A stretch of 37,579 nt of DNA from Zoogloea sp. (lineage in GTDB: Bacteria; Pseudomonadota; Gammaproteobacteria; Burkholderiales; Rhodocyclaceae). The DNA is taken from positions 1-37,579 of the forward strand of contig NZ_JAQUVG010000023.1 in NCBI RefSeq assembly GCF_028693495.1, read 5' to 3'. Positions 3,388-35,893 of the stretch are shown here, piece after piece (position 1 is the stretch's first letter; every line of letters starts with the position of its first letter). The notes under the pieces are model-generated. The model searched no databases. It worked only from the letters and a program-made list of their open reading frames with translations, and was not told where the DNA came from. The translations under genes and the position numbers were made by a program.

Positions 3388-3390
3388 ACG

Positions 3391-4656
3391 ATGACGACCA
3401 AATCTCAAGCCGTGCTGGACTGGATCGACGAACGCTTCCCGCTTACGTCGACCATCAAGGGCCATCTCACCGAGTACTACGCCCCCAAGAACTTCAACTT
3501 CTGGTACTTCTTCGGCTCCCTGGCCCTGCTGGTGCTGGTAATCCAGATCGTCACCGGCATCTTTCTGGTGATGCACTACAAGCCGGATGCTTCCCTCAAC
3601 GCTGCGGGCGTGCCGGTGGCGTTTGCCTCTGTCGAGTACATCATGCGTGACGTCCCGGGTGGCTGGTTGATCCGCTACATGCACTCCACCGGAGCCTCCG
3701 CCTTCTTCATCGTGGTGTATCTGCACATGTTCCGTGGCCTCATCTACGGTTCATATCGCAAGCCCCGCGAACTGATCTGGATCTTCGGTACCCTGATCTT
3801 CCTGGCGCTGATGGCCGAGGCTTTCATGGGCTACCTGCTCCCCTGGGGCCAGATGTCCTTCTGGGGCGCCCAGGTGATCGTTAACCTGTTCTCCGCGATC
3901 CCTGTCATCGGTCCCGACCTTTCCGTCGTGATCCGCGGCGATTTCGTGGTCTCCGACGCGACCCTCAACCGCTTCTTCTCCTTCCACGTCATTGCCGTGC
4001 CGCTGATCCTCATCGGCCTGGTTGCTGCCCACATCGTCGCCCTGCACGAAGTCGGCTCCAACAACCCGGATGGCGTTGAAATCAAGAAGAAGAAGGGGGC
4101 TGACGGCCACCCTCTGGACGGCATCCCCTTCCACCCCTACTACACCGTCAAGGATATCGTGGGCGTGGTCGGCTTCCTGATCGTCTTCTCCCTGATCGTG
4201 TTCTTTGCGCCTGAGGGCGGTGGCTACTTCCTGGAGTTCAACAACTTCATCCCGGCAGATCCCCTGAAGACTCCGCCGCATATTGCACCGGTGTGGTACT
4301 TCACTCCCTTCTACTCCATCCTGCGTGCGGTCACCTATCCGCTGTTTGGCATCGATGCGAAGTTCTGGGGTGTGGTAGCCATGGGCGCTGCGGTCGTGAT
4401 CATCGCCTTCCTGCCCTGGCTGGATCGTAGCCCGGTCAAGTCCATCCGCTACAAGGGTGGTCTGTACAAGGCGATCCTGGCTGTCTTCATTGTCTCCTTC
4501 TTCATCCTCGGCTACCTCGGCGTGCTGCCCCCGACTCCGGGTCGCACCATCGTGTCCCAGATCTGCTCGGTGATCTACTTCGGCTTCTTCCTGTTGATGC
4601 CCTGGTATTCCAAGATCGACAAGTGCAAGCCCGTGCCTGATCGCGTGACCGGTTAA
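3391..4656 (+). CDS. petB: Cytochrome b of the bc1 complex
   Basis: The membrane core of the bc1 complex (421 residues), holding hemes bL and bH and the two quinone sites that run the protonmotive Q cycle. Four heme ligands are seen with the family spacing: His98, His112, His199 and His214. The Qo-site motif usually written PEWY reads PVWY here (residues 300-303); this variant is known from beta- and gammaproteobacteria. About eight or nine hydrophobic helices are visible, and the last one precedes a short charged tail. The gene starts four bases after petA, and its stop overlaps the petC ATG by one base, so the three subunits are likely translated as a unit. Confidence 0.97.
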   Translation: MTTKSQAVLDWIDERFPLTSTIKGHLTEYYAPKNFNFWYFFGSLALLVLVIQIVTGIFLVMHYKPDASLNAAGVPVAFASVEYIMRDVPGGWLIRYMHSTGASAFFIVVYLHMFRGLIYGSYRKPRELIWIFGTLIFLALMAEAFMGYLLPWGQMSFWGAQVIVNLFSAIPVIGPDLSVVIRGDFVVSDATLNRFFSFHVIAVPLILIGLVAAHIVALHEVGSNNPDGVEIKKKKGADGHPLDGIPFHPYYTVKDIVGVVGFLIVFSLIVFFAPEGGGYFLEFNNFIPADPLKTPPHIAPVWYFTPFYSILRAVTYPLFGIDAKFWGVVAMGAAVVIIAFLPWLDRSPVKSIRYKGGLYKAILAVFIVSFFILGYLGVLPPTPGRTIVSQICSVIYFGFFLLMPWYSKIDKCKPVPDRVTG

Positions 4657-5414
4657 TGAGAATGAACGCCATGAAAAAACTTTTGACGTCTCTCCTGTTT
4701 GCCCCGCTGATGGCCCTTGCCAGCGGCGAGGTGCTGCACCTGGACAAGGCCCCGGTTTCCACCGAGCCAGCGGCGCTCCAGAATGGTGCCAAGCTCTTCG
4801 TGAACTACTGCCTGAACTGCCACGGCGCGAGCTACATGCGCTACAACCGGCTCCAGGAAATCGGTCTGTCCGAGCAACTGATCAAGGACAACCTGATGTT
4901 CACCGCTGACAAGATCGGCGAGCCGATGCGCATTGCCATGCAGCGTGACGAAGCGAAGGTGTGGTTTGGTGCCGCGCCCCCGGATCTCACCGTGATCGCC
5001 CGTTCCCGCGCTTCCGAGTTCGGGAGTGGTGCGGACTGGCTGTACACCTACCTGCGCAGCTTCTACCGGGATCCCGAACGGCCCACGGGCTGGAACAACG
5101 TGATCTTCGAAAACGTGGGCATGCCCCATGTGCTGTACGAGCTGCAGGGTGACATGGTCGCCAAGGTGGAAGAGAAGGATGATGGTCACGGCGGCAAGAC
5201 CAAGTCCATCACGCTTGAGCAGGGCAAGCCTGGCAAGATGTCCAAGGAAGAGTATGACAAGGCCACTGCAGACCTCGTTTCCTATCTGGTCTGGATGGGC
5301 GAGCCGGTTGCCGAGACTCGCAAGAGTATTGGCAAGGTCGTGATCGCTTTCCTTGGTGTTCTCTTCGTACTCTCCTACCTTCTCAAGAAGAATTACTGGA
5401 GAGACATACACTAA
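4656..5414 (+). CDS. petC: Cytochrome c1 of the bc1 complex
   Basis: The c-type heme subunit (252 residues) accepts electrons from the Rieske protein and delivers them to soluble cytochrome c on the periplasmic side. An N-terminal Sec signal ending near ALASG is followed by the heme-binding CLNCH motif at residues 52-56. A GEPMRIAM segment and WFGAAPPDLT, typical of cytochrome c1, follow. A C-terminal transmembrane helix (about residues 224-243) anchors it, with a short basic cytoplasmic tail. The ATG at 4656 overlaps the petB stop; in-frame ATGs at 4662 and 4671 are alternatives, the last giving a compact MKKLL-type signal peptide. It closes the petABC operon; a strong hairpin lies downstream. 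Confidence 0.96.
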   Translation: MRMNAMKKLLTSLLFAPLMALASGEVLHLDKAPVSTEPAALQNGAKLFVNYCLNCHGASYMRYNRLQEIGLSEQLIKDNLMFTADKIGEPMRIAMQRDEAKVWFGAAPPDLTVIARSRASEFGSGADWLYTYLRSFYRDPERPTGWNNVIFENVGMPHVLYELQGDMVAKVEEKDDGHGGKTKSITLEQGKPGKMSKEEYDKATADLVSYLVWMGEPVAETRKSIGKVVIAFLGVLFVLSYLLKKNYWRDIH

Positions 5415-5456
5415 TCGGCGCGTAGCCGAAGCAGTTTCTTGCCAGTATCGAGCAAG

Positions 5457-5488
5457 ACACGCCATGTGCCCTGTGGTGCATGGCGTGT
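5457..5488 (+). terminator. Strong hairpin between petC and sspA without a U-run
   Basis: Arms 5457-5470 and 5475-5488 pair over 14 positions (two of them G-T) around a CTGT loop. No run of T follows, so it is not a classical Rho-independent terminator. It could be an attenuator, a processing or stability element at the petC 3' end, or a weak terminator. The sspA ATG is 31 bases further on. Confidence 0.5.
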
Positions 5489-5518
5489 GATTCAGAGTAT
5501 CCGTGGGGTAACACAACG

Positions 5519-6115
5519 ATGATGAATTTGTATTCCGGAACGACAGATCCTTTCAGTCACCGGTGCCGTATCGTGCTCTATGAAAAGGGCATGGATTTCC
5601 AGGTGATTGATGTCGATCTCTTCAACAAGCCGGAAGACATCGCAGTGATCAACCCGTATAACCGGGTTCCTGTGCTGGTTGATCGTGATCTCGTGCTGTA
5701 CGAGTCCAACATCATCAACGAGTACATCGACGAGCGTTTCCCGCATCCCCAGCTGATGCCGCCCGACCCCATCATGCGTGCCCGGGCTCGCCAGCTGCTG
5801 CATACCTTCGAACTTGAGTTGTTCTCCCATGTGGGCACCCTGGAAAAGAATCCCAAGGGTGCCGAAAAGGAACGTGCCCACGTCCGTGACCAGCTGACTC
5901 AGCTGGCTCCGATGTTCACCAAGCAGAAGTTCCTTCTTGGGGATGAATTCTCCATGCTTGATGTCGCCATCGCGCCGCTGCTGTGGCGCCTTGATCATTA
6001 CGGCATCGAGTTGCCCCGTTCTGCCGCTCCGCTCATGAAATATGCGGAACGGATTTTCAGCCGCCAGGGCTTCATTGATGCCATGACCCCCTCCGAAAAG
6101 GTCATGCGCCGCTAA
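5519..6115 (+). CDS. sspA: Stringent starvation protein A (GST-fold RNA polymerase-associated)
   Basis: SspA binds RNA polymerase and modulates transcription in stationary phase, stress and virulence; it has a glutathione S-transferase fold but no known transferase activity. The protein (198 residues) shows the thioredoxin-like N-domain (SGTTDPFSHRCRIVLYEKG), the NPYNRVPVLVDRDL cis-proline region and the ERFPHPQLMP segment. The PHP triplet there matches the surface patch known to be functional in E. coli SspA. I place the start at the ATG pair 5519/5522, preceded by GTGGGG; an upstream ATG at 5480 lies inside a hairpin and encodes non-family residues. Gene order petABC-sspA-sspB is common in beta- and gammaproteobacteria. 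Confidence 0.93.
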   Translation: MMNLYSGTTDPFSHRCRIVLYEKGMDFQVIDVDLFNKPEDIAVINPYNRVPVLVDRDLVLYESNIINEYIDERFPHPQLMPPDPIMRARARQLLHTFELELFSHVGTLEKNPKGAEKERAHVRDQLTQLAPMFTKQKFLLGDEFSMLDVAIAPLLWRLDHYGIELPRSAAPLMKYAERIFSRQGFIDAMTPSEKVMRR

Positions 6116-6125
6116 GCCAGGTCGG

Positions 6126-6144
6126 GGCCGCGCAAGTCGCGGCC
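6126..6144 (+). other. Hairpin between sspA and sspB
   Basis: GGCCGCG (6126-6132) and CGCGGCC (6138-6144) form a perfect seven-pair stem with a five-base loop, followed only by a weak TCTGCCTTT tract. It may partly attenuate read-through from sspA into sspB or mark an mRNA end. Confidence 0.4.
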
Positions 6145-6203
6145 TCTGCCTTTAAACCGGCTTCTTTTGGCCGTCTGCTTCTTCTGCCGAACGTCCTGCA
6201 ATC

Positions 6204-6635
6204 ATGACTGACATCTCCACCAAGCCCTATCTGATCCGTGCCATTTTTGAATGGTGTGTGGATCAAGGCCTGACCCCTTATCTTGCCGTCTCTGTAGACA
6301 ACCGGACAAGCGTGCCGCGTAATTTCGTTCAGGATGGGCAGATTGTGCTGAACGTCAGTCCGGATGCGACGCAAAGTCTGGTGATGGGCAATGAGCTGAT
6401 TGCCTTTCAGGCCCGTTTCAGTGGGGCTGCCCAGAATATTTCCATTCCGGTAGAGAACGTTGCTGCCATCTATGCCCGGGAAAATGGACATGGCATGGCT
6501 TTCGAGGTGCCGGATCTGTCGGCGCAGGCAGAAATGCCGGCGCCCATGGATGAGGTGCTCACCGAAGCGGTCGAAGAAGACGCGCCGGAGCCCCCCAAGG
6601 GCGGAGGTCGTGCCCGTCTCAAAGTTGTCAAGTAA
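6204..6635 (+). CDS. sspB: ClpXP protease specificity-enhancing factor SspB
   Basis: SspB is the adaptor that delivers ssrA-tagged polypeptides, and some other substrates, to the ClpXP protease. The 143-residue protein has the folded substrate-binding domain (about residues 1-105: KPYLIRAIFEWCVDQGLTPY, VNVSPDA-like and AIYARENG segments). A flexible acidic linker rich in Glu, Ala and Pro follows. The final residues (RARLKVVK) match the short C-terminal ClpX-binding tail known from E. coli SspB. It lies 88 bases after sspA with a hairpin between, so it may be co-transcribed or partly independent. Identification is firm because both functional ends are present. Confidence 0.93.
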   Translation: MTDISTKPYLIRAIFEWCVDQGLTPYLAVSVDNRTSVPRNFVQDGQIVLNVSPDATQSLVMGNELIAFQARFSGAAQNISIPVENVAAIYARENGHGMAFEVPDLSAQAEMPAPMDEVLTEAVEEDAPEPPKGGGRARLKVVK

Positions 6636-6752
6636 CGACGGGCGCGCCTTCTTAATGCATCTCAGGGGCACGGTATCATCCGTGGTCTAGAGTTGTACCT
6701 GCGGCAGTCCCTGTCGTGAATCTTGTCCCCTTACCTGAGCAGAGGTTATCCC

Positions 6753-7238
6753 ATGGCTGCCATGGAAATGAATGAAAAGCTGACCCTTGGTCTTGGGCCG
6801 ATGGACCAGACCCACCAGGATTTCGTCGATGCCTACAACGCCTTGCTGGGTGCGTCCGGTCAGGCCTTGCTGGATGCCATGGACGCGTTCATCGCCCATT
6901 CGGTCGAGCATTTCGATCAAGAGAACCTCTGGATGGAGAAGATCGGCTTTCCCGGATGTCACAAGGCGGAGCATGACCGGGTCCTCGCCGTCTGTCGCGA
7001 TGTGCGCAAGCGTCTCGAGCGGGGTGATACGGCGCTGGTCCGCCAGCTGATCCAGGAAATTCCCGTCTGGTTCGGCAATCATGTGAGCTCGATGGATGCT
7101 GCCTTGGCGGCCTACATCCAATCCATTGGTTTCGATACGGAAACCGGAGAGATTCGCAACCCTGCTGCGATGGAGGGTGGCGGCTGTGGTGGGGCTCCCG
7201 CGACGGAGGAGGCCTGTCATACTCCTCAGCCAGCCTGA
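6753..7238 (+). CDS. Bacteriohemerythrin with Cys-containing C-terminal tail
   Basis: A 161-residue non-heme di-iron protein that reversibly binds oxygen; bacterial members are proposed to deliver or sense O2 in microaerobic bacteria. All seven canonical iron ligands can be placed: His21, His53, Glu57, His70, His74, His110 and Asp115, with family spacing. The ATG at 6753 follows a GAGGT ribosome site and gives a normal N-terminus; an upstream in-frame ATG (6723) adds ten non-family residues. The tail beyond residue about 135 is unusual, with a Gly-rich GGGCGGA segment and a second Cys-His pair near the end. The gene stands alone, with its own terminator, between sspB and a PilZ gene. Oxygen-related role is inferred from family. 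Confidence 0.92.
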   Translation: MAAMEMNEKLTLGLGPMDQTHQDFVDAYNALLGASGQALLDAMDAFIAHSVEHFDQENLWMEKIGFPGCHKAEHDRVLAVCRDVRKRLERGDTALVRQLIQEIPVWFGNHVSSMDAALAAYIQSIGFDTETGEIRNPAAMEGGGCGGAPATEEACHTPQPA

Positions 7239-7244
7239 GTCTGC

Positions 7245-7266
7245 AAGCGCCCGTGGGGCGCTTTTT
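7245..7266 (+). terminator. Rho-independent terminator after bacteriohemerythrin
   Basis: AAGCGCCC (7245-7252), a three-base GTG loop and GGGCGCTT (7256-7263), followed by T to 7266. The hairpin starts seven bases after the stop codon. Confidence 0.85.
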
Positions 7267-7364
7267 CAATGGCATCGTTCTTTTGCTTGGTCGCAGGGAG
7301 TATCGGGCACGAGCTCAGGCTCCCTGTCCAGAGTGCCTCCCGCGACCTGATGAGCGTCAGTCAC

Positions 7365-7391
7365 TAAATTATTTCGGCTCCCGGACGATAA
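7365..7391 (+). promoter_or_regulatory. Candidate sigma-28 (FliA) promoter for the PilZ gene
   Basis: TAAATTAT (7365-7372), exactly 11 bases, then GACGATAA (7384-7391). The enterobacterial FliA consensus is TAAAGTTT-N11-GCCGATAA, so spacing is exact and 13 of 16 consensus positions match. The predicted start site would be near 7398, about 24 bases before the ATG. The downstream product is a YcgR-like PilZ protein, a class often controlled by FliA. Confidence 0.65.
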
Positions 7392-7421
7392 CGCAGGAGT
7401 CCGATTCACAGGCACTTTCCC

Positions 7422-8297
7422 ATGTCTTTCGTCAAAGTCACTGAAGCCGATCTGCAACTGGGACTTCCTGTTCCCTGGCCCTTGTATGACGACAAGAGAC
7501 AGTTGCTGTTGGCCAAGGGCGGGGTCATCGGATCCGAGAGTCAGCGTAGCCAACTTCTACTGCGCGGCCTTTACCGCCGACTGCCAGCAGTGGAAGGCCG
7601 GGTTGGACCTGAAGGAGAGAAACCGGCGGATGACACCTGCGCTTTCGATGACATCCGGCTGGATATCGGCGACACCCTGCAGTTGCAGACTCAGAGTGAC
7701 ACCGCCCAGACCCGTTACTACGTCAAGTTGATTGGCTATTTCAAGGGCAGGAGCGTCATCGTTACCACGCCGACTCAGGACGGCAAGGTGCTCCTGATGC
7801 GGGAGGGTCAGGCTTTTGTGGTGCGCTTGTTCTCGGGCAAGAGCGTCTACGCCTTCAGCTCCGCCATTGTCAAGGTGGCCAACGTACCTTTTCCCCATCT
7901 CCATCTTACTTATCCCAATCAGGTGCGCGGTCTCGTGGTGCGCCGTGGTGCCCGTGCCCGGGTGAACCTGATTGCCGCGGTTCAGGGGGGCGACGGCCGT
8001 TCCCATGCTGCCACCCTGGTGGATTTGAGTACCGGCGGTGCCATGCTGACGGCCAAGGCACCCATGGGCACCAAGGAGAACCGGATTTTTCTGAAATTCC
8101 GGGTCACGGTCAATGAGGTGGAGCAGTACCTCACGATCCCCGGCGTTTTGCGGTCGGTGCATGCCGCAGGGGTCTCCGAGGGAGATGCGCCGTTGATTCA
8201 TCATGGGGTCCAGTTTGAAACGCTCCCCCATGCCGAACAGGTCGTACTGTCTGCCTTTGTTTATCGCACCTTGTTTGAAGAGAGCGCGGACGCCTGA
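7422..8297 (+). CDS. PilZ-domain c-di-GMP effector, YcgR-like
   Basis: A 291-residue cytoplasmic protein likely to read c-di-GMP and act on motility. Residues about 8-52 form a small module (DLQLGLPVPWPLYDD, then LLLAKGGVI) resembling segments found with HD-GYP proteins elsewhere in this window. Residues about 75-165 look like the YcgR N-terminal (PilZN-type) domain. The C-terminal PilZ domain begins near 170 with both c-di-GMP-binding motifs: the arginine cluster at 174-180 (RxxxR) and D201-L-S-T-G-G. In enterobacteria YcgR brakes flagellar rotation when c-di-GMP is high. A FliA-type promoter immediately upstream supports a flagellar link. Monocistronic, between hemerythrin and convergent dadA. 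The exact target is unknown. Confidence 0.85.
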   Translation: MSFVKVTEADLQLGLPVPWPLYDDKRQLLLAKGGVIGSESQRSQLLLRGLYRRLPAVEGRVGPEGEKPADDTCAFDDIRLDIGDTLQLQTQSDTAQTRYYVKLIGYFKGRSVIVTTPTQDGKVLLMREGQAFVVRLFSGKSVYAFSSAIVKVANVPFPHLHLTYPNQVRGLVVRRGARARVNLIAAVQGGDGRSHAATLVDLSTGGAMLTAKAPMGTKENRIFLKFRVTVNEVEQYLTIPGVLRSVHAAGVSEGDAPLIHHGVQFETLPHAEQVVLSAFVYRTLFEESADA

Positions 8298-8377
8298 GAC
8301 CTTCGGTCAGGGCGTTCCTGCCGTGACAAGGCGACGCCCTGGCGGCCTGGCTGTCCAGGGGGGCGGTTTCCTTCCCG

Positions 8378-9631
8378 TCAGCCTGAAAACGGAAACATGG
8401 GCTCCGGCGGTTGTCCCGTGACCAGGTCGGCGAGGGCTTTTCCGGAGCCACAGGCCAGCGTCCAGCCGAGGCTGCCGTGCCCGGTATTGAGATACAGCCC
8501 GGGAACGGATGTCCGGCCGATCAGCGGGATGTTGCTCGGTGTGGCAGGGCGCAGTCCGCACCAGTGTTCGGCGGCTCCGGTATCCGTCAGGTCCGGGAAG
8601 TGTTCGTCCAGCCAGTGCAGGAGCGTGGCGCTGCGCAGGGCGTTCGGGCGAAGGTCGTAGCCATTGAGTTCGGCCGTTCCTGCAATTCTTAATCGATTGC
8701 CCAGACGGGAACAGACGATGCGCCGGGATTCGTCCGTGAGGCTCAGATGGGGTGCCCGTTCCGGTGCCAGGATGGGCACGGTGATTGAATACCCCTTGAC
8801 CGGATAGACGGGGAGCTTCAGTCCGAGGGGAGCAACCAGGCGTGCGCTGTAGCTGCCGGCAGCCACGATGCAGGCGTCCGCTCGCAGCATGCCCAGGCGC
8901 CCCTCTGAATCGCGAATCCGTACCCCATGCAGACCTTCTGTGCTGCGGTCGAAGCCTTGAAGCCGGATGTTGAACTGGAAGTCGACGCCCGCCTCAGCCG
9001 CCTTGGTGGACAAGGCCTGGCAGAACAGGTGCGCATTTCCGCACTCGTCGTCCACACCATGCAGAGCTCCGGCAAGGCGGGATTCCATGAAAGCCAGCGA
9101 AGGCTCCAGTTCGAGGGTTTCTCCCGGGGTCAGGACCCGGGCACGGATACCCAGGGCTTCCAGTTGAGCCTGTTTGGCTGGCAGGTGTTTCAGTTCCGAC
9201 TTCTTTTCGAAGAGATGCAGGATGCCACCCTGGCCCGCTTCGTACTGGATACCGGTCTGTTCGCGCAGGGCCTGGAGCTCCCGTCGGCTGTACAGGGCAA
9301 GGCTGGCAATGGCGCGGGTGTTGCGGTGGGTGCGGGCTGGCAGGCATTCCCGTAAAAACTGGAAAGCCCATTTCCATTGCGCCGCATCGGCCCGCCAGCG
9401 AAACAGGAGGGGGGCGTCCGGTCGTCCCAGCCAGCGCAGGATCGTCGATGGGGCTGAGGGGTTTGCCCAGGGCTCGGGATGGCTGACCGAAATCTGTCCG
9501 CCGTTGGCGTAGCTGGTTTCCAGCCCGGGGCCGGGTTGTCTGTCGATGACGGTGACCTTGCATCCGGCCTGGCGCAGGTACCAGGCACTGGTGACGCCGG
9601 CAAGGCCGGCGCCGATGACCACAACTTCCAT
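8378..9631 (-). CDS. dadA: D-amino acid dehydrogenase, FAD-dependent
   Basis: DadA oxidatively deaminates D-amino acids (notably D-alanine) to 2-oxo acids and ammonia and passes electrons to the respiratory chain at the inner membrane. The 417-residue protein starts with the FAD-binding dinucleotide motif VVVIGAGLAGVTSAW and ends with the typical GLRPATPSNIPLIG and NTGHGSLGWT flavin-contact segments. I start at the ATG ending at 9631, because the motif begins right there; a longer frame to 9805 would add 58 residues unlike the family and run into fbp. It is divergent from fbp, with about 135 bases between starts. No alanine racemase gene lies next to it in this window. A related DAO-family specificity cannot be excluded. 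Confidence 0.88.
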   Translation of the reverse strand: MEVVVIGAGLAGVTSAWYLRQAGCKVTVIDRQPGPGLETSYANGGQISVSHPEPWANPSAPSTILRWLGRPDAPLLFRWRADAAQWKWAFQFLRECLPARTHRNTRAIASLALYSRRELQALREQTGIQYEAGQGGILHLFEKKSELKHLPAKQAQLEALGIRARVLTPGETLELEPSLAFMESRLAGALHGVDDECGNAHLFCQALSTKAAEAGVDFQFNIRLQGFDRSTEGLHGVRIRDSEGRLGMLRADACIVAAGSYSARLVAPLGLKLPVYPVKGYSITVPILAPERAPHLSLTDESRRIVCSRLGNRLRIAGTAELNGYDLRPNALRSATLLHWLDEHFPDLTDTGAAEHWCGLRPATPSNIPLIGRTSVPGLYLNTGHGSLGWTLACGSGKALADLVTGQPPEPMFPFSG

Positions 9632-9766
9632 GGTGCAGAGTGAGAATGTTCCAGAATGAGGGAGCTGTTCGTCTTGATTGCAGCGAAAGGCGCAATGATA
9701 AACGACGTAAACGCAGGATCCAGGCGATAATTGCAGCTTTGTCAGGTCTTTCCGGAGAGCCCACAG

Positions 9767-10768
9767 ATGCGTCGAGTCACGCTTACCCAGTTTCTGATCG
9801 AACAACAGCGAAAAGGTTTAATGAGTGCAGACCTGCGCTTGCTGATTGAAGTGGTGGCACGAGCCGTCAAGGCCATCGCGGTGAACGTGTCCAAGGGCGC
9901 CCTGGCGGGGGTGCTCGGCGAGGCGGGCAGCGACAACATCCAGGGCGAGGCCCAGAAGAAGCTGGATGTGATCGCCAATGACATCCTGATTCAGGCCAAT
10001 GAGTGGGGGGGGCACCTGGCAGCGATGGCCTCCGAGGAGGTCGAGGAGATTCGTCCGATCTCTGGCGACTATCCGAAGGGGGCTTACCTGTTGCTGTTTG
10101 ATCCCCTGGATGGTTCCTCCAACATCGATGTCAACATTTCCGTCGGCACGATCTTTTCGGTCCTGCGCTGCCCCGCAGGGGTGAGTGCCCCGACCGAAGC
10201 CGACTTCATGCAACCGGGAAGTGCCCAGGTGGCGGCGGGTTACGCGGTATATGGTCCGTCCACCCAGCTCATCCTGACCGTCGGCGACGGTGTGCATGGG
10301 TTCACCCTCGACCGGGAGATGGGGAGCTTCATTCATACCCATGCCGACATGACGATTCCCGAGGACACCAAGGAGTACGCCATCAACGCCTCCAACGAAC
10401 GTTTCTGGGAGGCTCCGGTGCAGCGCTACATCGGCGAGCTGAAGGCGGGCCAGGACGGTCCCCGTGGCCGCGACTTCAACATGCGCTGGGTGGCGTCCAT
10501 GGTCGCTGACGTCCATCGCATCCTGACCCGGGGCGGCATCTTCATGTATCCCATGGACAGCAAGATGAAGGACAAGGGTGGCAAGCTCCGTCTCATGTAT
10601 GAAGCGAATCCCATGGCCATGATTGTCGAGGCTGCCGGCGGTGCTGCTTCCACGGGGCGCGAGCGCATTCTGGACGTCACGCCTGTCCAGCTGCACCAGC
10701 GGGTGCCGGTGGTGCTCGGGTCGAAAAACGAAGTGGAGCGGGTCGTCCGCTATCATCTGGAAGGCTGA
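9767..10768 (+). CDS. fbp: Fructose-1,6-bisphosphatase, class I
   Basis: FBPase hydrolyses fructose 1,6-bisphosphate to fructose 6-phosphate, the committed step of gluconeogenesis, and serves the Calvin cycle in autotrophs. The protein (333 residues, E. coli length) has the metal-binding [10 protein letters not shown] segment, the ASEE motif upstream of it, the [12 protein letters not shown] strand and the C-terminal [15 protein letters not shown] signature. The ATG at 9767 follows a GGAGAG ribosome site and gives the family N-terminus MRRVTLTQF; an upstream in-frame ATG at 9731 adds twelve non-family residues. Divergent from dadA. The gap holds a TTGATT/TGATAA pair with 16-base spacing near 9673-9700 that is only a weak promoter candidate. 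No Calvin-cycle gene is adjacent, so gluconeogenesis is the simpler role. Confidence 0.95.
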
Positions 10769-27912: not shown

Positions 27913-30066
27913 ATGACACAGACTGATGACCCCCACGTCCTGATGGTGGACGACGACCCCCTGACCCGCCTGGTCGCCGGCACAGCCCTCCGTGAGGGCG
28001 GCTTCCGGGTGAGCGAGGCCGCGAGCGGGGAAGAGGCCCTGGCGCGGCTCGACCGGGAGGACGTCCCCGATCTGGTCCTGCTCGATGTGATGATGCCCGG
28101 CCTCAGCGGTTTCGAAGTCTGCTGCCAGTTGCGTGCCCGCCCGTGGGGCGCCCTGGTGCCGGTGATCATGCTCACCGGGCTCGAGGACAGCGAGTCGGTG
28201 GAGCAGGCGTTCGATGCGGGCGCCACGGATTTCATCTCCAAGCCCATCAACGGGAGCCTGTTGCGGTTCCGTATCCGTTACGTGCTCCGCGCTGCCCGGC
28301 TGATGAAGGAGCTGGCTCGCAACCAGAGCCGCCTCGAGCATTCCCAGCGGATTGCCCGTCTGGGCAGCTGGGAATGGACGGTCGATGAGGAGGAGGTGGA
28401 GCGCTCGGCCCAGTATTTCCGCCTGTTTGGTGGTGCTCCGGAGGCGTTCGGCCCGTCGATGGAGGCGGTCCTCGAGCATGTCTATGCTCCCGACCGGGAC
28501 AGGGTGGCCGCGGCGCTCGAGGGTGCCCGGCGCGGGCAGGCCTATCAGCTGACCTACCGGATCGTCTGGCCCGACGGCAGCGTGCGGACCGTGCTGGAAA
28601 CCGCCGAGCCCGCAGCCGGTGGGGAAGGCGATGGGCGCTCTGCACCGCTCGTCATGGAGGGGAGCCTGCAGGACATCACCGAGCAGGTAGATGCCCAGCG
28701 GCGTATCCGCCAGCTCGCCTATTTCGATCATCTCACGGGCTTGCCGAACCGGGAGTTCTTCCGGGAGGCTCTGGTCGTCGCGGCCGTGCGCTGCCTGCGC
28801 AACGACAGCCGCTGCGCGGTGATGGTGGTGGACCTGGACCGTTTTGCCCGTATCAATGACAGCCTCGGCCCCGAGCGGGGGGACCAGGTTCTCCAGGTGA
28901 TCGGCCACCGCCTGCGGGAGGCCATGGGGGATCGTATCCCGGCCGATCCGCCCGCTGGAGGGGGAATGCCGGTGTTCCGGGTGGCACGCCTGGCGGCCGA
29001 CGAATTTGGCATCCTGGTTCAGGATGTGGGGTCCGTGGACGAGGCCCTCGAGATTGCCGGGCGGCTCCTGCGGGTGGTCCAGGTGCCCATCCGGGTGCCC
29101 CAGCAGGAGATTGCCCTCTCGGCCAGGATCGGTGTGGCCGTGATGCCCGATCACGCCTGCGATGCGGATGCCCTTCTGAAGGCAGCGGAAACCGCCCTCA
29201 ACCGGGCCAAGCGCAGCAATGGCGAGCCCGTTTCCCTGTTCTCCGAAGAGATGAAGATCGCCGCCCTGCTGCGCTTCACCCTGGAAGGCGAGCTGCGCAA
29301 GGCCCTTGCCGAGGGCAGCCTCCAGGTGGTCTATCAGCCCATCGTGACACTGCCCGAAAGACGGGTGGTCAAGGCCGAGGCCCTGGTGCGCTGGTTCCAC
29401 GGAACCCGTGGGGCCGTGCCGCCCCCCGAGTTCATCTCCCTGGCCGAGGAGACCGGCATGATCGTGCCCCTCAGCCGTCTGGTGATCGAGCGGGTGTGCC
29501 GTGACATCGCGGACCTGGAGGATCGCCTGCCCCCGGATTTCCGGGTCAGCATCAATCTCTCCGGTGTCAACTTCATGGATGTCCGGCTTATTCCCACCGT
29601 GGAGGAGATCCTCCGCAGGGCGGGTGTCCCGCCCACCCGGATCGAGTTCGAATTGACGGAGACCGTATTGATGCGTGACCTGGATTACGCCACCAGCACC
29701 CTGGGGCAGCTGCGGGAGAGGGGCATCCGGGTGGCGGTGGATGATTTCGGCACGGGCTACTCGTCCCTGGCCTACCTGCGGCGGCTGGCCGTCGATACCC
29801 TCAAGATCGATCGTTCCTTCATTCACGAGCTCAGTGACGGCCAGGGCATCGCCATCGTCGAGGCGGTGATCGGCCTGGCCCGCAGCCTGGGTCTGGAGGT
29901 GGTGGCTGAAGGGGTCGAGACGACCGCCCAGCTTCAGGCGCTGGTCGAAAGGGGCTGCCACCAGATCCAGGGGTATCTGTTTGCCCGGCCGATGGCGCCT
30001 GGCCTCCTGGCCGGGATGCTCTCCCGGGTGCTGGAGATCCCGGAGGATCCCCTTCCCCGGGGCTGA
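27913..30066 (+). CDS. Response regulator REC-PAS-GGDEF(degenerate)-EAL
   Basis: A cytoplasmic 717-residue response regulator predicted to hydrolyse c-di-GMP under phosphorylation control. The receiver domain (1-120) has an acidic pocket, phosphoacceptor Asp58, Thr88 and Lys110. A PAS domain (about 130-265) follows. The GGDEF domain (about 270-440) has AADEF (361-365) in place of GGDEF, so cyclase activity is doubtful. The EAL domain (about 450-705) keeps EAL (489-491), INLS, FELTE, DDFGTGYSS (Asp610-Asp611), KID and AEGVE, so it is likely an active phosphodiesterase. No kinase is in its own transcription unit; the histidine kinase of the convergent operon, 1.3 kb away, is a candidate partner. 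Its stop is nine bases from the stop of the convergent REC-HD-GYP gene. Confidence 0.92.
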   Translation: MTQTDDPHVLMVDDDPLTRLVAGTALREGGFRVSEAASGEEALARLDREDVPDLVLLDVMMPGLSGFEVCCQLRARPWGALVPVIMLTGLEDSESVEQAFDAGATDFISKPINGSLLRFRIRYVLRAARLMKELARNQSRLEHSQRIARLGSWEWTVDEEEVERSAQYFRLFGGAPEAFGPSMEAVLEHVYAPDRDRVAAALEGARRGQAYQLTYRIVWPDGSVRTVLETAEPAAGGEGDGRSAPLVMEGSLQDITEQVDAQRRIRQLAYFDHLTGLPNREFFREALVVAAVRCLRNDSRCAVMVVDLDRFARINDSLGPERGDQVLQVIGHRLREAMGDRIPADPPAGGGMPVFRVARLAADEFGILVQDVGSVDEALEIAGRLLRVVQVPIRVPQQEIALSARIGVAVMPDHACDADALLKAAETALNRAKRSNGEPVSLFSEEMKIAALLRFTLEGELRKALAEGSLQVVYQPIVTLPERRVVKAEALVRWFHGTRGAVPPPEFISLAEETGMIVPLSRLVIERVCRDIADLEDRLPPDFRVSINLSGVNFMDVRLIPTVEEILRRAGVPPTRIEFELTETVLMRDLDYATSTLGQLRERGIRVAVDDFGTGYSSLAYLRRLAVDTLKIDRSFIHELSDGQGIAIVEAVIGLARSLGLEVVAEGVETTAQLQALVERGCHQIQGYLFARPMAPGLLAGMLSRVLEIPEDPLPRG

Positions 30067-30092
30067 GCCCCGGCTTCAGCCCGGCATTTTTT
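30057..30092. terminator. Possible bidirectional terminator between convergent signalling genes
   Basis: CCGGGGCT-G-AGCCCCGG (30057-30073), effectively a stem with a small loop, spans the stop of the plus-strand gene. Six T (30087-30092) follow 13 bases later. The distance from stem to T-run makes this only moderately convincing. Confidence 0.35.
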
Positions 30093-31374
30093 CGGGGGGC
30101 TTGATGGCGATGGACAGACGTACCCCTTCGGACGCTTCCAGCTCCCGCAATTGCCGGATCAGGCTCTCATCCAGCACGAAATCGGCCGCCAGGAGCATGA
30201 CCCCGTCCCGGGTCAGCAGGTCCCGCGCCAGCACCATGCCCGGCCGCAGGGCGGCAGGGTTCAGTTCGGAGGTGCTGGCGCTGATGACCTCGGTGGCGCC
30301 CAGAATGTCCACCAGGGCATCCACCACCTGGGGACAGTAGCGCTTGCCCCGGTTGTGCTGAATGAAGGTCAGTGCCTCCTCGGCCTTGAGCTTGCGGGGG
30401 GACAGGGTACCGATCTGCAGGCCGTCATACTCGTTGGCGACCGCCAGGATGCGGGCGCCGTAGGGAATGGTCAGGCCGGACAGGCGATCCGGGTAACCCT
30501 GGCCGTCCCAGCGTTCATGGTGGCTGCGGATGTAGGTGCCTGCCTTGCGCAGGTTCTCGAGTCCCATCAGGGCGGCCTGTCCGGTAACCGGGTGCTTGCG
30601 CAGCAGCCCCAGTTCGTCACCGGTCATGTGGGAGACGGGTTTGGCCAGCAGCTCGTCCGGCAGGCCGATCTTGCCCACGTCGTGGAGGAGGCCGGCGAGC
30701 ATCACGTCCTGGGCATCGGCGGCAGAAAAATGGAGGCGCAGGGCGATCTTGCGGGCCAGGTCGGCCACCCGCCGGGAGTGACCGGAGATGGCGCCCTCCC
30801 GCAGCTCGATCAGGTTGGAGAACACCCGGATCGAGGTCAGGAAGTGCTGCTTGAGCTTTTCGTGAGCGCCCCGCAGCTCCGCGGTGCGCGCCTCCACCTT
30901 CTGCTCGAGGCTGGCATTGAGGGTCTTCAGCTCTGCGTTCTGAGCCCGGGTCAGGGCTTCGAGGCGGTTCTTTTCCCGCTCCAGGGCCTTGCGCTCCAGG
31001 GCCTCCCGGACGGTCAGCACCACCTCCTGGTCGTTCCAGGGCTTGGAAATGTAGCGGGCGATCTGGCCCGCATTGATGGCGGCGATCGTCGACTCCATGT
31101 CCGCGTAGCCGGTCAGGAGCAGCCGGACCACGTCCGGGTGGCGTTTGCGGGCCTCGGTCAGGAAGGTCGCCCCGTCCATGCCCGGCATGCGCATGTCGGA
31201 GATGATCAGGTCCACCTTTTCCCGGTCCAGGATCTCGAGGCCCTCGGCGCCGCCGCTGGCGATGAGGACTGTGTAGCCGTGGGGGCGGAACAGGCGTCGC
31301 AGGGATGACAGGATGTTGGCTTCGTCGTCGACGCAGAGCAGGGTGAAGCTGGGGGTGTCGGGGGCTGCGTTCAT
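30076..31374 (-). CDS. Response regulator REC-HD-GYP, c-di-GMP phosphodiesterase
   Basis: A 432-residue RpfG-like regulator that probably degrades c-di-GMP (to pGpG or GMP) when phosphorylated. Receiver domain 10-128 has DDE at 16-18, phosphoacceptor Asp60 and Lys111. A coiled coil (about 130-175) leads to the HD-GYP domain (about 180-355), with HD at 231-232, the HHERWDG segment from 285 and GYP at 293-295, so metal ligands are intact. The C-terminal segment (about 372-422, LRPGMVLARDLLTRDG then LIRQL) matches the module forming the small 104-residue protein upstream. Last gene of a five-gene operon; its ATG overlaps the kinase stop as ATGA, and GGAG lies upstream. Its receiver is close to that of the operon's first gene. 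Confidence 0.93.
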   Translation of the reverse strand: MNAAPDTPSFTLLCVDDEANILSSLRRLFRPHGYTVLIASGGAEGLEILDREKVDLIISDMRMPGMDGATFLTEARKRHPDVVRLLLTGYADMESTIAAINAGQIARYISKPWNDQEVVLTVREALERKALEREKNRLEALTRAQNAELKTLNASLEQKVEARTAELRGAHEKLKQHFLTSIRVFSNLIELREGAISGHSRRVADLARKIALRLHFSAADAQDVMLAGLLHDVGKIGLPDELLAKPVSHMTGDELGLLRKHPVTGQAALMGLENLRKAGTYIRSHHERWDGQGYPDRLSGLTIPYGARILAVANEYDGLQIGTLSPRKLKAEEALTFIQHNRGKRYCPQVVDALVDILGATEVISASTSELNPAALRPGMVLARDLLTRDGVMLLAADFVLDESLIRQLRELEASEGVRLSIAIKPPEKMPG

Positions 31375-33179
31375 GGGGGGGCTCCGGCAGGATCCTGATG
31401 CTGGACCGGGAGGGTGATCCGGAAGGTGGTGCCTGCGCCAGGGGTGCTGCTCACGCTGATTTTTCCGTTGTGTTTCTGCACGATGCCGTAGGAGAGGGAC
31501 AAGCCGAGGCCGGTCCCCTTGCCGACGGGTTTGGTGGTGAAGAAGGGATCGAAGATCCGGTCGATGACGGCCTGGGGTATTCCGCTGCCGTTGTCGGCCA
31601 CCTCGATCCAGACCTTGTCGCCGCCCTCCATGCCGGTGCGCACGGTGATGGTGCCCCGCTGCCCTTCGGGCATGGCATGGGCGGCATTCACGAACAGGTT
31701 CATGAAGACCTGGTTCAGCTGGGACGGCAGGCAGTCCACTCGGGGGAGCGGGCCGTATTCCCTGACCACTTCGGCCCGGTACTTGATTTCGTTGCTGGCC
31801 ACATTGAGGGTGCTGTCCAGGCCCTGGTGGAGGTCCGCCGCCTGCCAGTCCTGGGTGGATTCGGAGCGGGAGAAGTCCCGCAGATCCTGCACGATCTTGC
31901 GTACCCGTTCGGTGCCTTCCTCTGACTCGCTGATCAGCTGGTGGATGTCCTCCCGCAGGAACTGGAAGTCGGCAGCCTCCTTGGCGGATGCAATCGCGGC
32001 CCGGTCTTCCGGCGGGAGACTGGCCTCCCGGGCCTCGTAGCTGTCCATCACCGACAGGAGCTGACCTACATAGGTCTTCAGGCTGCGGATGTTGGAATTG
32101 ACGTAGCCGATGGGATTGTTGATTTCATGGGCGACCCCTGCAGCCAGCTGGCCGATCGAGGCCATTTTCTCGGACTGGACCAGTTGCTGCTGGGTGTCGT
32201 GCAGGCGGCAGTTGAGTTCGGTGAGCTCGGCGTAGCGTTTCAGGAGTTCCTCCTCGGCCCGCTCCCGCCGCTCGATGTCCTGCTCCAGGCTGGCCTTGGC
32301 CTGCTGGAGCTGATCGGTGCGCTGGGCCACCTTGGCTTCCAGATCGGCGTGCATGCGCAGCAATGCCATCTCGGCAAATTTGCGCTCGGTGATGTCCTGC
32401 AGCGTCTCTATCGCTCCGATCACCTCCCCCAGGGCATTCTTGAGGGGCGCTGCCGTGAAATGCAGCCAGCGCCCGCTGTCCCCCAGCTGGGGGAAGAAGT
32501 CTTCTGCTTCATAGGCGCCCTCCACATGGGGTGAGCGGCGGATTTTCTTGTCGCCGTAGAACTGCATGATGTCCTCGACCTGCCCGGACACGATCAGATC
32601 GGCGAGGATGGGGCGCTCCACGTCATAGAAGGCCACCCACGGCCGGCGGGTGCCCACCATCCGGGCTGCAGGGATGCCGAGCGCCTGTTCGCAGGCGTGG
32701 TTCCAGTGGGTCACCACCTGATGGGCATTGATCACCAGGGTCGGCACGGGGTCGCCGTCAATGATCTGGGTGAGCAGCTGCTGGGTCTGTTGCTGAGCGG
32801 CTTCGGCGCGTTTGCGTTCGGTCACGTCGATCAGGCTGCAGATGGTCGTCGGGGTCCCGGCGATGAGCTCCCGGTTGATCATCAGCTCCACCCAGCGCTG
32901 TTCCTTGTCCCGTGTGCAGATCAGGGTCTCGCAGCGGGAAAACGGCTGGGCTTCCCGGGGCGCCATTTCGCTGCACTGGCGCAGCCTTTCGTGGACATGG
33001 GCCGGAAAGAGCTCCCGGTAGTGCATGCGGGCCAGGGTTTCCGGGCTGTGGCCGGTCAGCCGCGACATGGCCCGGTTGGCGAACAGGATCTGCTCGCCCC
33101 GGTGCAGGAGGATGGCTGCGCTGAGGGATTCGGCGAGGGGAAACAGGGATGAGGGCAGCAGAAAAGGCGACGGCGTCAT
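31371..33179 (-). CDS. PAS-PAS sensor histidine kinase, no transmembrane segment seen
   Basis: A 602-residue histidine kinase. Two PAS domains (about 15-125 and 135-262, the second with a PAC tail [15 protein letters not shown]) are followed by a long coiled coil (about 270-335). The phosphorylation site His351 lies in [13 protein letters not shown], an NtrB/ZraS-like H-box. The ATPase domain has the N box ([16 protein letters not shown]), DNGSGIP and [16 protein letters not shown]. No convincing membrane helix is present, so sensing is probably cytoplasmic. It lies between an HDOD gene and a REC-HD-GYP gene with which it overlaps by four bases, making REC-HD-GYP the obvious partner. The REC of the operon's first gene is a second candidate. 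Signal unknown. Confidence 0.93.
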
Positions 33180-33186
33180 GGTCGGC

Positions 33187-34035
33187 TCAAAGCATCAGGC
33201 GGTAGCTTTCAAAGCGGTTCCGGGTGTCCTCCAGCACTGCCAGCAGGACTTCCCAGCTCAGTCCCAGGCCGGTCACCGTTTCCTGATCTAGGCGGGGCAC
33301 CTGGCTCCACTCGTCCTTGCCTTCGTCCAGGTCCAGGGCCTGGGAGATGGCATCCGCGTAATGGATGATGCCGGCCATCCCGCCGGGGGCGCCCCGTTGC
33401 GGGTCGTGGTGCCAGGCCAGGGCATCCACGATGTCGGCCGGAAAGTTCCAGCGGGCGGTCAGGGCGGCCCCCACCTGGGCATGGTCGAAGCCGAAGATCC
33501 GGCGTTCCGCATCGGTCAGCGGAAGGTCCCCGGAGTGGGCCAGCTCCAGGCAGCGGCTGAAGTGATCCGGATCGAGCACCATCAGCGCCAGCCGGCCGAT
33601 GTCGTGGAGCAGACCCGCGATGAACAGGGACTCCGGGCGGCGCCCCAGGGCCTGGGCCAGGGCCTGGGCCGCGACTGCCGTGCCCAGCACGTGACGCCAG
33701 AAACGATCCTGATTGAACCCGGCGGCGCAGCCGGCCGGCAGGCTGGTCACCACCGCCGCGGCCAGCACCAGGGAGCGTACCGAGGACAGGCCCAGCACCA
33801 CGATCGCATCATGGATCGAACTGACCCGGGCCTGCAGCCCGTAGAAGGGGGAGTTGGCCACCCGCAGCACCCGGGCGGCAATCGCCTGGTCCTGGGCGAT
33901 CTGGTGGGCCAGTTTGTCGATATCCGTGTCGGCGCCCGCCATCGAGGCCAGCACCTCCATGGCCACGGCCGGCATGGCCGGCAGCTTGTGGATATGGGCG
34001 ACGAGTTCGTCCAGGGTAAAGGGCGCACTGCTCAT
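33187..34035 (-). CDS. HDOD domain signalling protein
   Basis: HDOD proteins are HD-superfamily relatives, usually without hydrolase activity, that work as protein-interaction modules in c-di-GMP and motility signalling. The 282-residue protein starts MSSAPFTLDELVAHIHKLPAMPAVA. It has the family RVLRVANSPFYGL and FIAGLLHDIGRLALMVL segments and a late WHHDPQ segment. An HD pair is retained in LLHDIG, but the full HD-GYP metal set is absent. I start at the ATG ending at 34035, which overlaps the upstream stop as ATGA and follows AAGAGA; the longer frame is antisense noise. It sits third in the five-gene operon, just before the kinase gene, with a seven-base gap. Its partner is unknown. Confidence 0.9.
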   Translation of the reverse strand: MSSAPFTLDELVAHIHKLPAMPAVAMEVLASMAGADTDIDKLAHQIAQDQAIAARVLRVANSPFYGLQARVSSIHDAIVVLGLSSVRSLVLAAAVVTSLPAGCAAGFNQDRFWRHVLGTAVAAQALAQALGRRPESLFIAGLLHDIGRLALMVLDPDHFSRCLELAHSGDLPLTDAERRIFGFDHAQVGAALTARWNFPADIVDALAWHHDPQRGAPGGMAGIIHYADAISQALDLDEGKDEWSQVPRLDQETVTGLGLSWEVLLAVLEDTRNRFESYRLML

Positions 34036-34346
34036 TGGAGTCTCTTCATGCGAAAGGCCAGCACGGCGTGGAGCAGGGCCTGGGCGCCAGGGTCGTCGGT
34101 GGCATGGCGGAACAGGTGCATCACCCGCTGGCGGATGGCCTCCCGCTGCCTTTCCTGGTCGGCGGGGTCTTCCGGCGCGATGATGAGCAGTGTTTCGATG
34201 CTCCGCCGGCCGAGGCTGACCAGGTGATTTTCCGTCAGGGTGGTTCCGGCTGGAAGCAGGATGGTGCCGTTCCGGTCGGTGACCGGTGCCCCGAGCACCA
34301 TGCCGGGCTGTGCTTCTGCGAGGGCGAGGGTGAGGACGGTGCTCAT
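34032..34346 (-). CDS. Small stand-alone 'PGM' module protein (uncharacterised)
   Basis: A 104-residue soluble protein that I cannot place in a named family. Residues about 10-58 (AEAQPGMVLGAPVTDRNG, then LLPAGTTLT and a short Leu-rich helix) match in pattern the C-terminal segment of the REC-HD-GYP protein in the same operon and the N-terminus of the PilZ protein at 7422. They also resemble the small N-terminal domain often seen ahead of HD-GYP domains (DUF3391-like). The remaining 45 residues form charged helices without known motifs. Both ends overlap neighbours by four bases (ATGA), so it is translated in step with the EAL-REC-PAS and HDOD proteins. A role as a docking or assembly factor is inference. 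Confidence 0.85.
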   Translation of the reverse strand: MSTVLTLALAEAQPGMVLGAPVTDRNGTILLPAGTTLTENHLVSLGRRSIETLLIIAPEDPADQERQREAIRQRVMHLFRHATDDPGAQALLHAVLAFRMKRLQ

Positions 34347-35893
34347 GCTGCGGGTTTGGCACAGGTGAAGGTGAGCAGGCAGCCCCGGGAGTGGCCGAAG
34401 GCGCCCAGGGTGTGGGCTTCCACCCGGAAGAGGCGGGTGCCGCAGAGGATCTCGGCCTTGCCCTCGCCAGCGGAGAGCAGCGGATGGAAGTCGGCCGGCA
34501 GCACATCCACCGCGTCCTGGCCGAGCAGGCGGGGCTGTTCGGAGAACAGGGCCTCGGCAGCCCGGTTGCAGAAGGCGATCATCCCGCCCGGATCCACCCC
34601 GATCACCGGCAGCGGCATGACTGCCAGGGCCTCCTGGGTCATGCTGAGGGCGGCCTCGTCCAGCCCCAGGCGGCGCTCCTGCTCCGCCAGGACCGACTTG
34701 AGGCGCTCGTTCATCCGGGCCAGTTCCTGATTGGCCTGCTGCAGTTCGGCGCCCAGGCGACGGTTGTCGTCGGCCAGAGCCTTGCGGCGGAAGGCTTCTT
34801 CGATGTTGGCCCGCAGCATGGCGTCGTCCCAGGGCTTGGTCAGGAACTTGTAGATGGCGCCCTCGTTGATGGCATTGGTCACCGACTGGAGATCGGTGTA
34901 GCCCGACAGCACCATGCGCACGGTGTCCGGCACCATGTCCTTGGCCTTGCGCAGGAACTCGACCCCGGTCATGCCCGGCATGCGCTGATCGGAAACGATC
35001 ACATCCACCGGGTTGGCAGCCAGGATCTCGAGTCCCTGCTGCCCCCCGCTGGCGGTCAGGATGGTATAGCCGTCCCGGCGCAGCAGGCGGCGCAGGGAGG
35101 ACAGGATGTTGTCTTCATCATCCACCAGCAGCAGGGTCTTGCGGGGTATCGGATCCCGGATCAGGTGTCCATCCAGCCGCCGCCCGTCGGCAAGCAGCTG
35201 GCCAAATTCCGCCGGCCGCAGGGCCGCCCCCAGGTACGGACCGGCCAGGATGTCGGCGCCACAGGCTTCCATGACCGAAGCGTGGAGAGGCGAGTCGATG
35301 CCCTCTGCACACACCGCCAACTTCAGGCGGTGGGCGCGACTGGCCAGGGCCCGGGCGATGGCCACGCCTTCCGGGTCTGCCGTGACATCCCGCGCCAGGC
35401 TGGCCGGAATCTTCATGCCATCCAGGAACTGGGCGTGGAGTGCCGCCAGATGGATGCCACTCCCGCTGGACACGTCGATCATGAAACGCACGCCGCAGGT
35501 CTTGAGGTGGGCGAGGGCCGCGCATTCCTCCGCCGAGATGCCGTCCTTGCCGCAGTGGATATGGAACTCCAGGCATCCAGGCGCCAGGCAGGCCTCCAGG
35601 AGAATGCCGTTGATCCGGTGGGCGACGTCGGTGTCGCACAACAGGTCCAGCTCCGCAGCCAGGGCCAGGGTCAGCGGGCGGTTCCGGGTGTGGTTCCAGC
35701 GGGCCATCTGGGTGCTGGCCGCCCGCAGCATCGCCAGGCTGGCTTCGCCGGATGCGCCCAGGGTCACTGCCCGGGGCTGACCGTCCAGGGCGGAGTAGAG
35801 CTCGGCCCCGGTCAGTTCGCCGCTGTGACAGTCATAACGTGGCAGGTAAAGCAGGGTATCCACCTCGGAGGTGGGGGCGGCTGGACAGTCCAT
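34343..35893 (-). CDS. Degenerate EAL-REC-coiled coil-PAS signalling protein
   Basis: A 516-residue cytoplasmic protein, first gene of the operon. Residues about 10-235 have the EAL fold pattern (LYLPRYDCHSGELTGAELYS at the start; CAEGID and ILAGPYLG at the end), but EAL reads ELY. The Asn of NLS, the EITE Glu and the second Asp of DDFG are replaced, so catalysis is unlikely. The receiver domain (251-370) has DDE at 258-260, phosphoacceptor Asp302 and Lys353. A coiled coil (about 371-412) and PAS domain (about 418-510) follow. An EAL domain placed before a receiver is unusual. The ATG ending at 35893 follows GGAG; the longer open frame upstream is antisense to hrpA. A FliA-like promoter lies 80 bases upstream. 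Confidence 0.88.
   Translation of the reverse strand: MDCPAAPTSEVDTLLYLPRYDCHSGELTGAELYSALDGQPRAVTLGASGEASLAMLRAASTQMARWNHTRNRPLTLALAAELDLLCDTDVAHRINGILLEACLAPGCLEFHIHCGKDGISAEECAALAHLKTCGVRFMIDVSSGSGIHLAALHAQFLDGMKIPASLARDVTADPEGVAIARALASRAHRLKLAVCAEGIDSPLHASVMEACGADILAGPYLGAALRPAEFGQLLADGRRLDGHLIRDPIPRKTLLLVDDEDNILSSLRRLLRRDGYTILTASGGQQGLEILAANPVDVIVSDQRMPGMTGVEFLRKAKDMVPDTVRMVLSGYTDLQSVTNAINEGAIYKFLTKPWDDAMLRANIEEAFRRKALADDNRRLGAELQQANQELARMNERLKSVLAEQERRLGLDEAALSMTQEALAVMPLPVIGVDPGGMIAFCNRAAEALFSEQPRLLGQDAVDVLPADFHPLLSAGEGKAEILCGTRLFRVEAHTLGAFGHSRGCLLTFTCAKPAA

Follow-up and report, generated by a model that had tools for sequence, protein, structure and literature searches.

The stretch of DNA analysed here (the window) is the 37,579-nucleotide contig NZ_JAQUVG010000023.1 of Zoogloea sp. 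(assembly GCF_028693495.1), and it carries on its minus strand, at 30076-35893, an operon of five genes, here called A to E, which is a NosR-type two-component module with an HDOD protein, a REC-PAS protein and a small protein (B) added to it. We consider it probable that the operon works as a multi-component two-component module around its NosR-family response regulator, the product of gene E. This reading draws on the packing of the genes, the invariant kinase residues of D, the receiver (REC) domain of A being closest to that of E, the membership of E in the NosR family, the conservation of the gene neighbourhood and the relatives in which a FIST gene joins the cluster. New in this analysis is the observation that in several relatives the cluster extends into a small REC gene, an MglA-like GTPase, a second kinase and an ATPase of REC-MshEN-T2SSE architecture.

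All reading frames were located where a preliminary description of the window had placed them, in the same order and with the same junctions, i.e. ATGA between A and B, B and C, and D and E, and 7 bases between C and D. Its account of the content, one kinase, two receivers, an HDOD protein, an HD-GYP protein and a decayed EAL domain in a packed operon, is borne out by the domain calls (Table 1). The label of phosphorelay, also used there, had to be given up because Pfam finds no histidine phosphotransfer (HPt) domain in the five proteins, the only HPTransfase match being one in D with an E-value of 0.054. With one kinase and two receivers the operon looks, by its domain content, like a branched two-component system and not like a phosphorelay.

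The NosR-family regulator and its operon partners

The E protein (Pfam REC 1.8e-23 and HD_5/HD-GYP 4.4e-38) passes the NCBIfam NosR model NF053512 with 558.8 bits against a cut-off of 400, its residues 12-424 covering positions 1-422 of the 422 in the model, and the same model is passed by the E counterparts of the three relatives tested (loci L044, L104 and L130). The idea that E has no known family was dropped once NCBIfam gave this match. The preliminary description did not recognise the operon as a characterised system, and this stands for the gene set as a whole, since among the matches listed in our literature search no title or abstract opening describes the five genes together, nor the triad of GTPase, kinase and REC-T2SSE ATPase discussed below; it does not stand for E, whose family is named and has been studied in Burkholderia.

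E retains the HD, HHE and GYP motifs. When compared with the eight metal ligands listed for PmGH (PMC4159591), it keeps six, H199, H231, D232, H261, H285 and H286, while the equivalent of E185 is Ala195 and that of D305 is Asn314, the latter being invariant in all 26 aligned E proteins. In PmGH the replacements E185A and D305A lowered the activity and did not abolish it (PMC4159591). Hydrolysis of cyclic diguanosine monophosphate (c-di-GMP) by E is uncertain because two of the eight ligands are missing. What had been called an active-looking hydrolase is therefore active-looking in its motifs and not in its full metal site, and E may have weak phosphodiesterase activity or serve as a sensor.

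In the NosR-NosP-NosK system studied in Burkholderia, NosP is a FIST-domain protein connected with nitric oxide, NosK is described as a kinase without a recognised sensor domain and the NosR motif is altered to HG-GTP (PMC12570481). The window operon resembles this system in that E belongs to the NosR family and that a kinase adjoins the REC-HD-GYP regulator, and in two relatives, L044 and L052, the genes directly after E encode a FIST protein and a short kinase. It differs in having no FIST gene, in the added REC-PAS, HDOD and B genes, in its kinase D, which has PAS domains of its own and is not a sensorless kinase of the NosK type, and in the site of E, where HD and GYP are kept and the altered residue is the Asn at the D305 position. 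A FIST protein and a kinase are present in the cluster at L041 6285-7568, L044 6895-8052, L052 14355-15503 and L066 9392-10900; E was not detected in L041 and lies upstream of A in L066. Among 150 genomes of the family, FIST proteins occur in at least 89, and at least four adjoin this cluster. The only FIST match among those listed for the window genome is a weak one (4e-14) on another contig (C142:385-921).

All 26 D proteins aligned have the same residue at each of the eight kinase positions checked, and the best NCBIfam match of D, T2SS_HK, scores 399 bits, under the cut-off of 450. A genome-wide search with the REC domain of A returned that of E as its closest paralog (1.4e-38, 55%), followed by the REC domain of a T2SSE ATPase on contig C168 (2.1e-32, 47%) and, at a distance, by the next match (3.4e-11).

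In C the ligand pattern H, HD, H, HH, D is formed by H115, H144, D145, H185, H209, H210 and D228, which are conserved in 31, 33, 31, 33, 31, 32 and 21 of 33 sequences, respectively. Five solved HDOD relatives were aligned, two of them versions of MmoQ; as we read the alignment, H, HD, H and HH are all present in 3hc1 and not all present in any of the other four. The HDOD regulators DVU0330 and GsmR share this domain with C, which differs from them in having no REC domain and a fuller pattern. DVU0330 keeps the HD residues and shows weak activity on bis(p-nitrophenyl) phosphate and none on c-di-GMP (PMC4114195), and in view of this precedent the ligand pattern of C does not imply activity.

B has no Pfam or NCBIfam family. 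In profile comparisons B is similar to the C-terminus of E (probability 96.7, E-value 3.4e-10 over 45 columns), to RNA polymerase beta' (6wmr, 7.5e-9) and, at 0.02-0.05, to MoeA chains. The predicted model of B has a mean predicted local distance difference test score (pLDDT) of 87.6 (81.9 for the model of E); with it Foldseek ranks MoeA first, weakly (best 4.4e-3), and gives no match at an E-value of 0.001 or below. B, MoeA and the RNA polymerase modules presumably have a sandwich-barrel fold in common. A wholly new protein was considered and dropped because the profile and fold comparisons group B with the MoeA and RNA polymerase modules.

Table 1. Genes and domains of the operon, with the neighbouring gene F
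Feature	Position	Strand	Basis
Gene A, EAL(degenerate)-REC-coiled coil-PAS, 516 aa	34343-35893	-	reading frames and Pfam
A, degenerate EAL domain, residues 16-222	35228-35848	-	Pfam EAL 6.6e-20; 4/8 key sites kept
A, receiver domain, residues 255-364	34802-35131	-	Pfam REC 4e-22
A, PAS domain core match, residues 423-472	34478-34627	-	Pfam PAS 0.0036, 17.7 bits, cut-off 22.6
Gene B, 104-aa protein, barrel-like module and two predicted helices	34032-34346	-	profile matches, model
Gene C, HDOD protein, 282 aa, HD-type ligand pattern	33187-34035	-	Pfam HDOD 1e-62, 211.6 bits, cut-off 22.9
Gene D, PAS-PAS histidine kinase, 602 aa	31371-33179	-	Pfam PAS domains, HisKA and HATPase_c
Gene E, REC-HD-GYP, 432 aa, NosR family, B-like C-terminal module	30076-31374	-	Pfam, NCBIfam, profile match
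Gene F (context), REC-PAS-GGDEF-EAL, convergent, nine bases from E	27913-30066	+	Pfam

The neighbourhood and its extension in relatives

The neighbourhood was examined in two groups of loci selected by similarity to A, with neighbours called by BLAST to the window proteins at bit thresholds set by us. With the REC-PAS half of A as the model, 39 of the 150 family genomes reach 338 bits or more. G017 follows with 276, its match spanning part of the model, and the best genome after it has 231; the family group consists of 40 loci from 39 REC-PAS genomes, the window's own excluded. The named group comprises the best 80 of 587 confirmed relatives, and the two groups overlap by at least six contigs (L073, L087, L093, L097, L098 and L100). 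Denominators are the loci with enough sequence. Two A counterparts, in G139 (L048) and G017 (L050), have an in-frame TAG within the match, a possible sign of decay.

REC-PAS has an HDOD gene at most 3 kb downstream in 30/37 family and 48/71 named loci, a D-type kinase within 6 kb in 30/33 and 47/63, and an HD-GYP protein on either side in 26/33 and 50/63, respectively. This tally is an undercount, as L120 was anchored on the first of two copies and it is the second that has B and HDOD alongside. The preliminary description had allowed for the genes being rarely neighbours in related genomes, and among the relatives checked this is not the case. The named records include Rhodoferax, Duganella, Herbaspirillum, Gallionella, Methylotenera, Methylomonas, Chromatiaceae, Nitrospirae and Desulfosarcina, the distant ones keeping only part of the gene set, and no PAS match was found in 17/80 named and 2/40 family loci. 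Judged from recurrence across genera, the grouping appears to go beyond chance. In the Methylotenera record L104 a second pair of HDOD and kinase genes lies just upstream of the cluster (2965-5938).

In several relatives the cluster continues past E into a small REC gene, an Arf/MglA-like GTPase, a kinase and the REC-MshEN-T2SSE ATPase. The fullest arrangement is that of L040 (genome G012), where nine genes stand in a row: A, B, C, D, E, the small REC gene, the GTPase, the histidine kinase and the ATPase. Contiguous variants, which differ in the presence of B and in the number of kinases, are L189, L190 and L191 and, among the named loci, L104, L116, L119 and L143, the ATPase running off the locus in L116 and L143. 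We collected 20 GTPase loci, from 18 of the 20 GTPase-bearing family genomes and from G282 and G308. The triad of GTPase, kinase and ATPase is present in 18 of them (L183 ends at a contig end and L197 has no ATPase nearby), and an E-type REC-HD-GYP gene adjoins in 13. The window genome itself has four consecutive genes on contig C168 (L161, G000) at 4591-10512, which encode a PAS-PAS chemoreceptor-like protein, a GTPase, a kinase and a REC-MshEN-T2SSE ATPase. This GTPase matches Arf (3.2e-7, 30.4 bits, cut-off 22.3) and is a small single-domain Ras/Arf-like P-loop GTPase, which we take to be MglA-like from its resemblance; SGKTTN is invariant in the 11 sequences aligned. The idea that the window's five genes look like a complete sensory machine is not supported, as several relatives have more genes and the window genome has its GTPase, kinase and ATPase on another contig.

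In some relatives the cluster directly adjoins a Ras-like GTPase and a motor of the pilus type, which suggests that the operon may steer that motor. The operon would then be the sensory half of a larger machine, with a motor of the type IV pilus or type II secretion kind as its output, and the two loci of the window genome would act together; we regard this as a real possibility, somewhat short of an even chance. It agrees with the contiguity of the two halves in L040 and its variants and with the C168 triad, with the counts of 18 and 13 of the 20 GTPase loci given above, and with the ATPase REC being the second-closest paralog of the REC of A. It also agrees with a hand count, which ignores relatedness, of REC-PAS in 14/20 family genomes with the GTPase against 26/130 without it. 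The same count speaks against it, however, as 26/40 REC-PAS genomes have no GTPase match, and two of four same-genus genomes (G094 and G133) have the operon and no GTPase match. In the window genome, moreover, the halves are unlinked and no small REC gene was seen on C168. The second kinase on C168 was ruled out as the nearest paralog of D, being only the fifth-closest. The C168 ATPase is under the NCBI cut-offs for both PilB (555, cut-off 676) and GspE (546, cut-off 630). It does match Pfam MshEN (2.9e-19), whose binding of c-di-GMP involves two tandem 24-residue RLG...Q motifs (PMC5013675). In the window genome motif II has neither RLG nor Q, and the same holds for most of the 28 orthologs aligned; L130 and L149 keep a G at that place. 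A link of c-di-GMP to the motor through MshEN, at first favoured, was dropped because of this degenerate motif and is unsupported by the sequence.

A more far-reaching version, which we put forward as tentative and rather doubtful, is an undescribed nine-part machine of [GGDEF-EAL]-REC-PAS, B, HDOD, kinase, NosR-type REC-HD-GYP, small REC, MglA-like GTPase, second kinase and REC-MshEN-T2SSE ATPase. Two kinases and the GTPase would set the place and time of motor action and the roles would be swapped, with the HDOD protein keeping a metal site and the HD-GYP and EAL domains acting as sensors or scaffolds.

Gene A and the decay of its EAL domain

The EAL domain of A had been called degenerate, and a comparison site by site confirms this. 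Against the active-site set E, N, E, D, D, K, E, Q, A reads E, A, C, D, V, K, E, A, which is not the site of an EAL phosphodiesterase. At the eight central sites A keeps four residues and the three congeners compared keep one each, while the 15 EAL positions are complete in 16 of the 17 fused relatives outside the genus (the exception is L046); eight of these 17 retain the letters GGDE. In other genera the counterparts of A have the architecture GGDEF-EAL-REC-PAS in many loci and are bare REC-PAS proteins in many others. In the window's genus the GGDEF domain has been lost from A and the EAL site has decayed; the Zoogloea records L072 and L107 have the same A architecture as the window. GGDEF alone has been lost outside this genus too, as L045 is without it and keeps its EAL site. 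Within the genus the REC part is 85-91% identical to that of the window and the EAL part 40-43%; over the loci L032, L033, L034, L072 and L107 the range for the EAL part is 40-46%. The conserved half of A is REC-PAS; the receiver motifs are intact in the alignment and the PAS part is conserved despite its Pfam score below the cut-off. From the loss of the EAL site together with the conservation of REC within the genus, the alignments indicate that A is a receiver with a decayed enzyme part.

It could be asked whether the whole operon is a partial relic, i.e. what is left of a c-di-GMP enzyme cluster in decay, retained chiefly because of E, in which the neighbouring F has taken over the EAL work. 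The losses of EAL sites in A and its congeners, set against the complete sites elsewhere, and the far lower identity of the EAL part agree with this. In F, GGDEF reads AADEF and the EAL sites are intact, and F lies convergent to the operon at the same place in L032, L033, L034 and L072. All five frames, however, are open in the window and in the five genus loci, and the receiver and kinase motifs are intact, and we therefore think this explanation unlikely. The gene set is rare across the phylum as sampled (299 genomes), in which 11 genomes have a REC-PAS match that passes 1e-60 and a strong GTPase match occurs in three genomes, the window's own included. That these are ordinary signalling genes adjacent by happenstance, to which the clear REC-PAS ortholog (>300 bits) in only two of the 299, the window's own among them, might lend itself, is highly improbable and largely contradicted by the neighbourhood tally, since the set recurs across many genera, partly in Methylococcales-, Nitrospirae- and Desulfobacterota-type records.

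Proposed mechanism and known systems

For the reading that we favour, of a two-component module around the NosR-family regulator, we infer phosphotransfer specificity, enzyme activities, complex formation, signal and output as follows. D would sense a signal through its PAS domains and phosphorylate the receivers of A and E, which are closely related to each other. Phosphorylated E would change c-di-GMP or its partners by way of an HD-GYP domain whose metal site is altered, and A would act as a regulatory receiver through its conserved REC-PAS half. The HDOD protein C could be a second output or a docking part. B, a small module like the C-terminus of E, may compete with that C-terminus or bridge the proteins, possibly within a complex. 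What the sequence itself shows is the domains, the packing and conservation of the genes, the decayed EAL site, the changed HD-GYP site, the module common to B and E and the place of E in the NosR family.

Several observations weigh against this reading. HDOD, kinase and HD-GYP genes occur together in only 22/33 family and 30/63 named loci, and B was detected in under half of the loci (17/37 and 15/71, respectively). D has close paralogs (55-61%) on contigs C107, C34 and C167, and cross-talk is consequently possible. E is without two of the eight PmGH ligands, and there is no FIST gene beside the window operon.

Partial precedents exist for such a design. Xanthomonas RpfG, a REC-HD-GYP protein, is said to act on pilus motor proteins via PilZ adaptors; it would be a precedent for an HD-GYP regulator acting on such proteins, with the difference that in the window's relatives the motor ATPase has a REC domain of its own. 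In Shewanella, HnoD is reportedly an HD-GYP-type protein. The HnoX-HnoK-HnoB-HnoD system to which it belongs has one kinase, an EAL regulator and, in HnoD, a further regulator that tunes the EAL regulator (PMC8846402), a composition like that of the window operon; there, however, the phosphodiesterase is active, whereas the EAL site of A has decayed, and the window operon has HDOD and B in addition. In MglA systems a Ras-like GTPase is tied to response regulators and motility, and no group with a neighbourhood of REC-T2SSE ATPase, HD-GYP and HDOD is described in the part of that paper available (PMC4316618).

HDOD proteins and NosR-type HD-GYP regulators are common and poorly placed in pathways. 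In this conserved operon both are linked with a single kinase, and in relatives also with a Ras-like GTPase and a motor ATPase that bears a receiver. This gives them concrete partners and may explain how environmental bacteria steer such motors.

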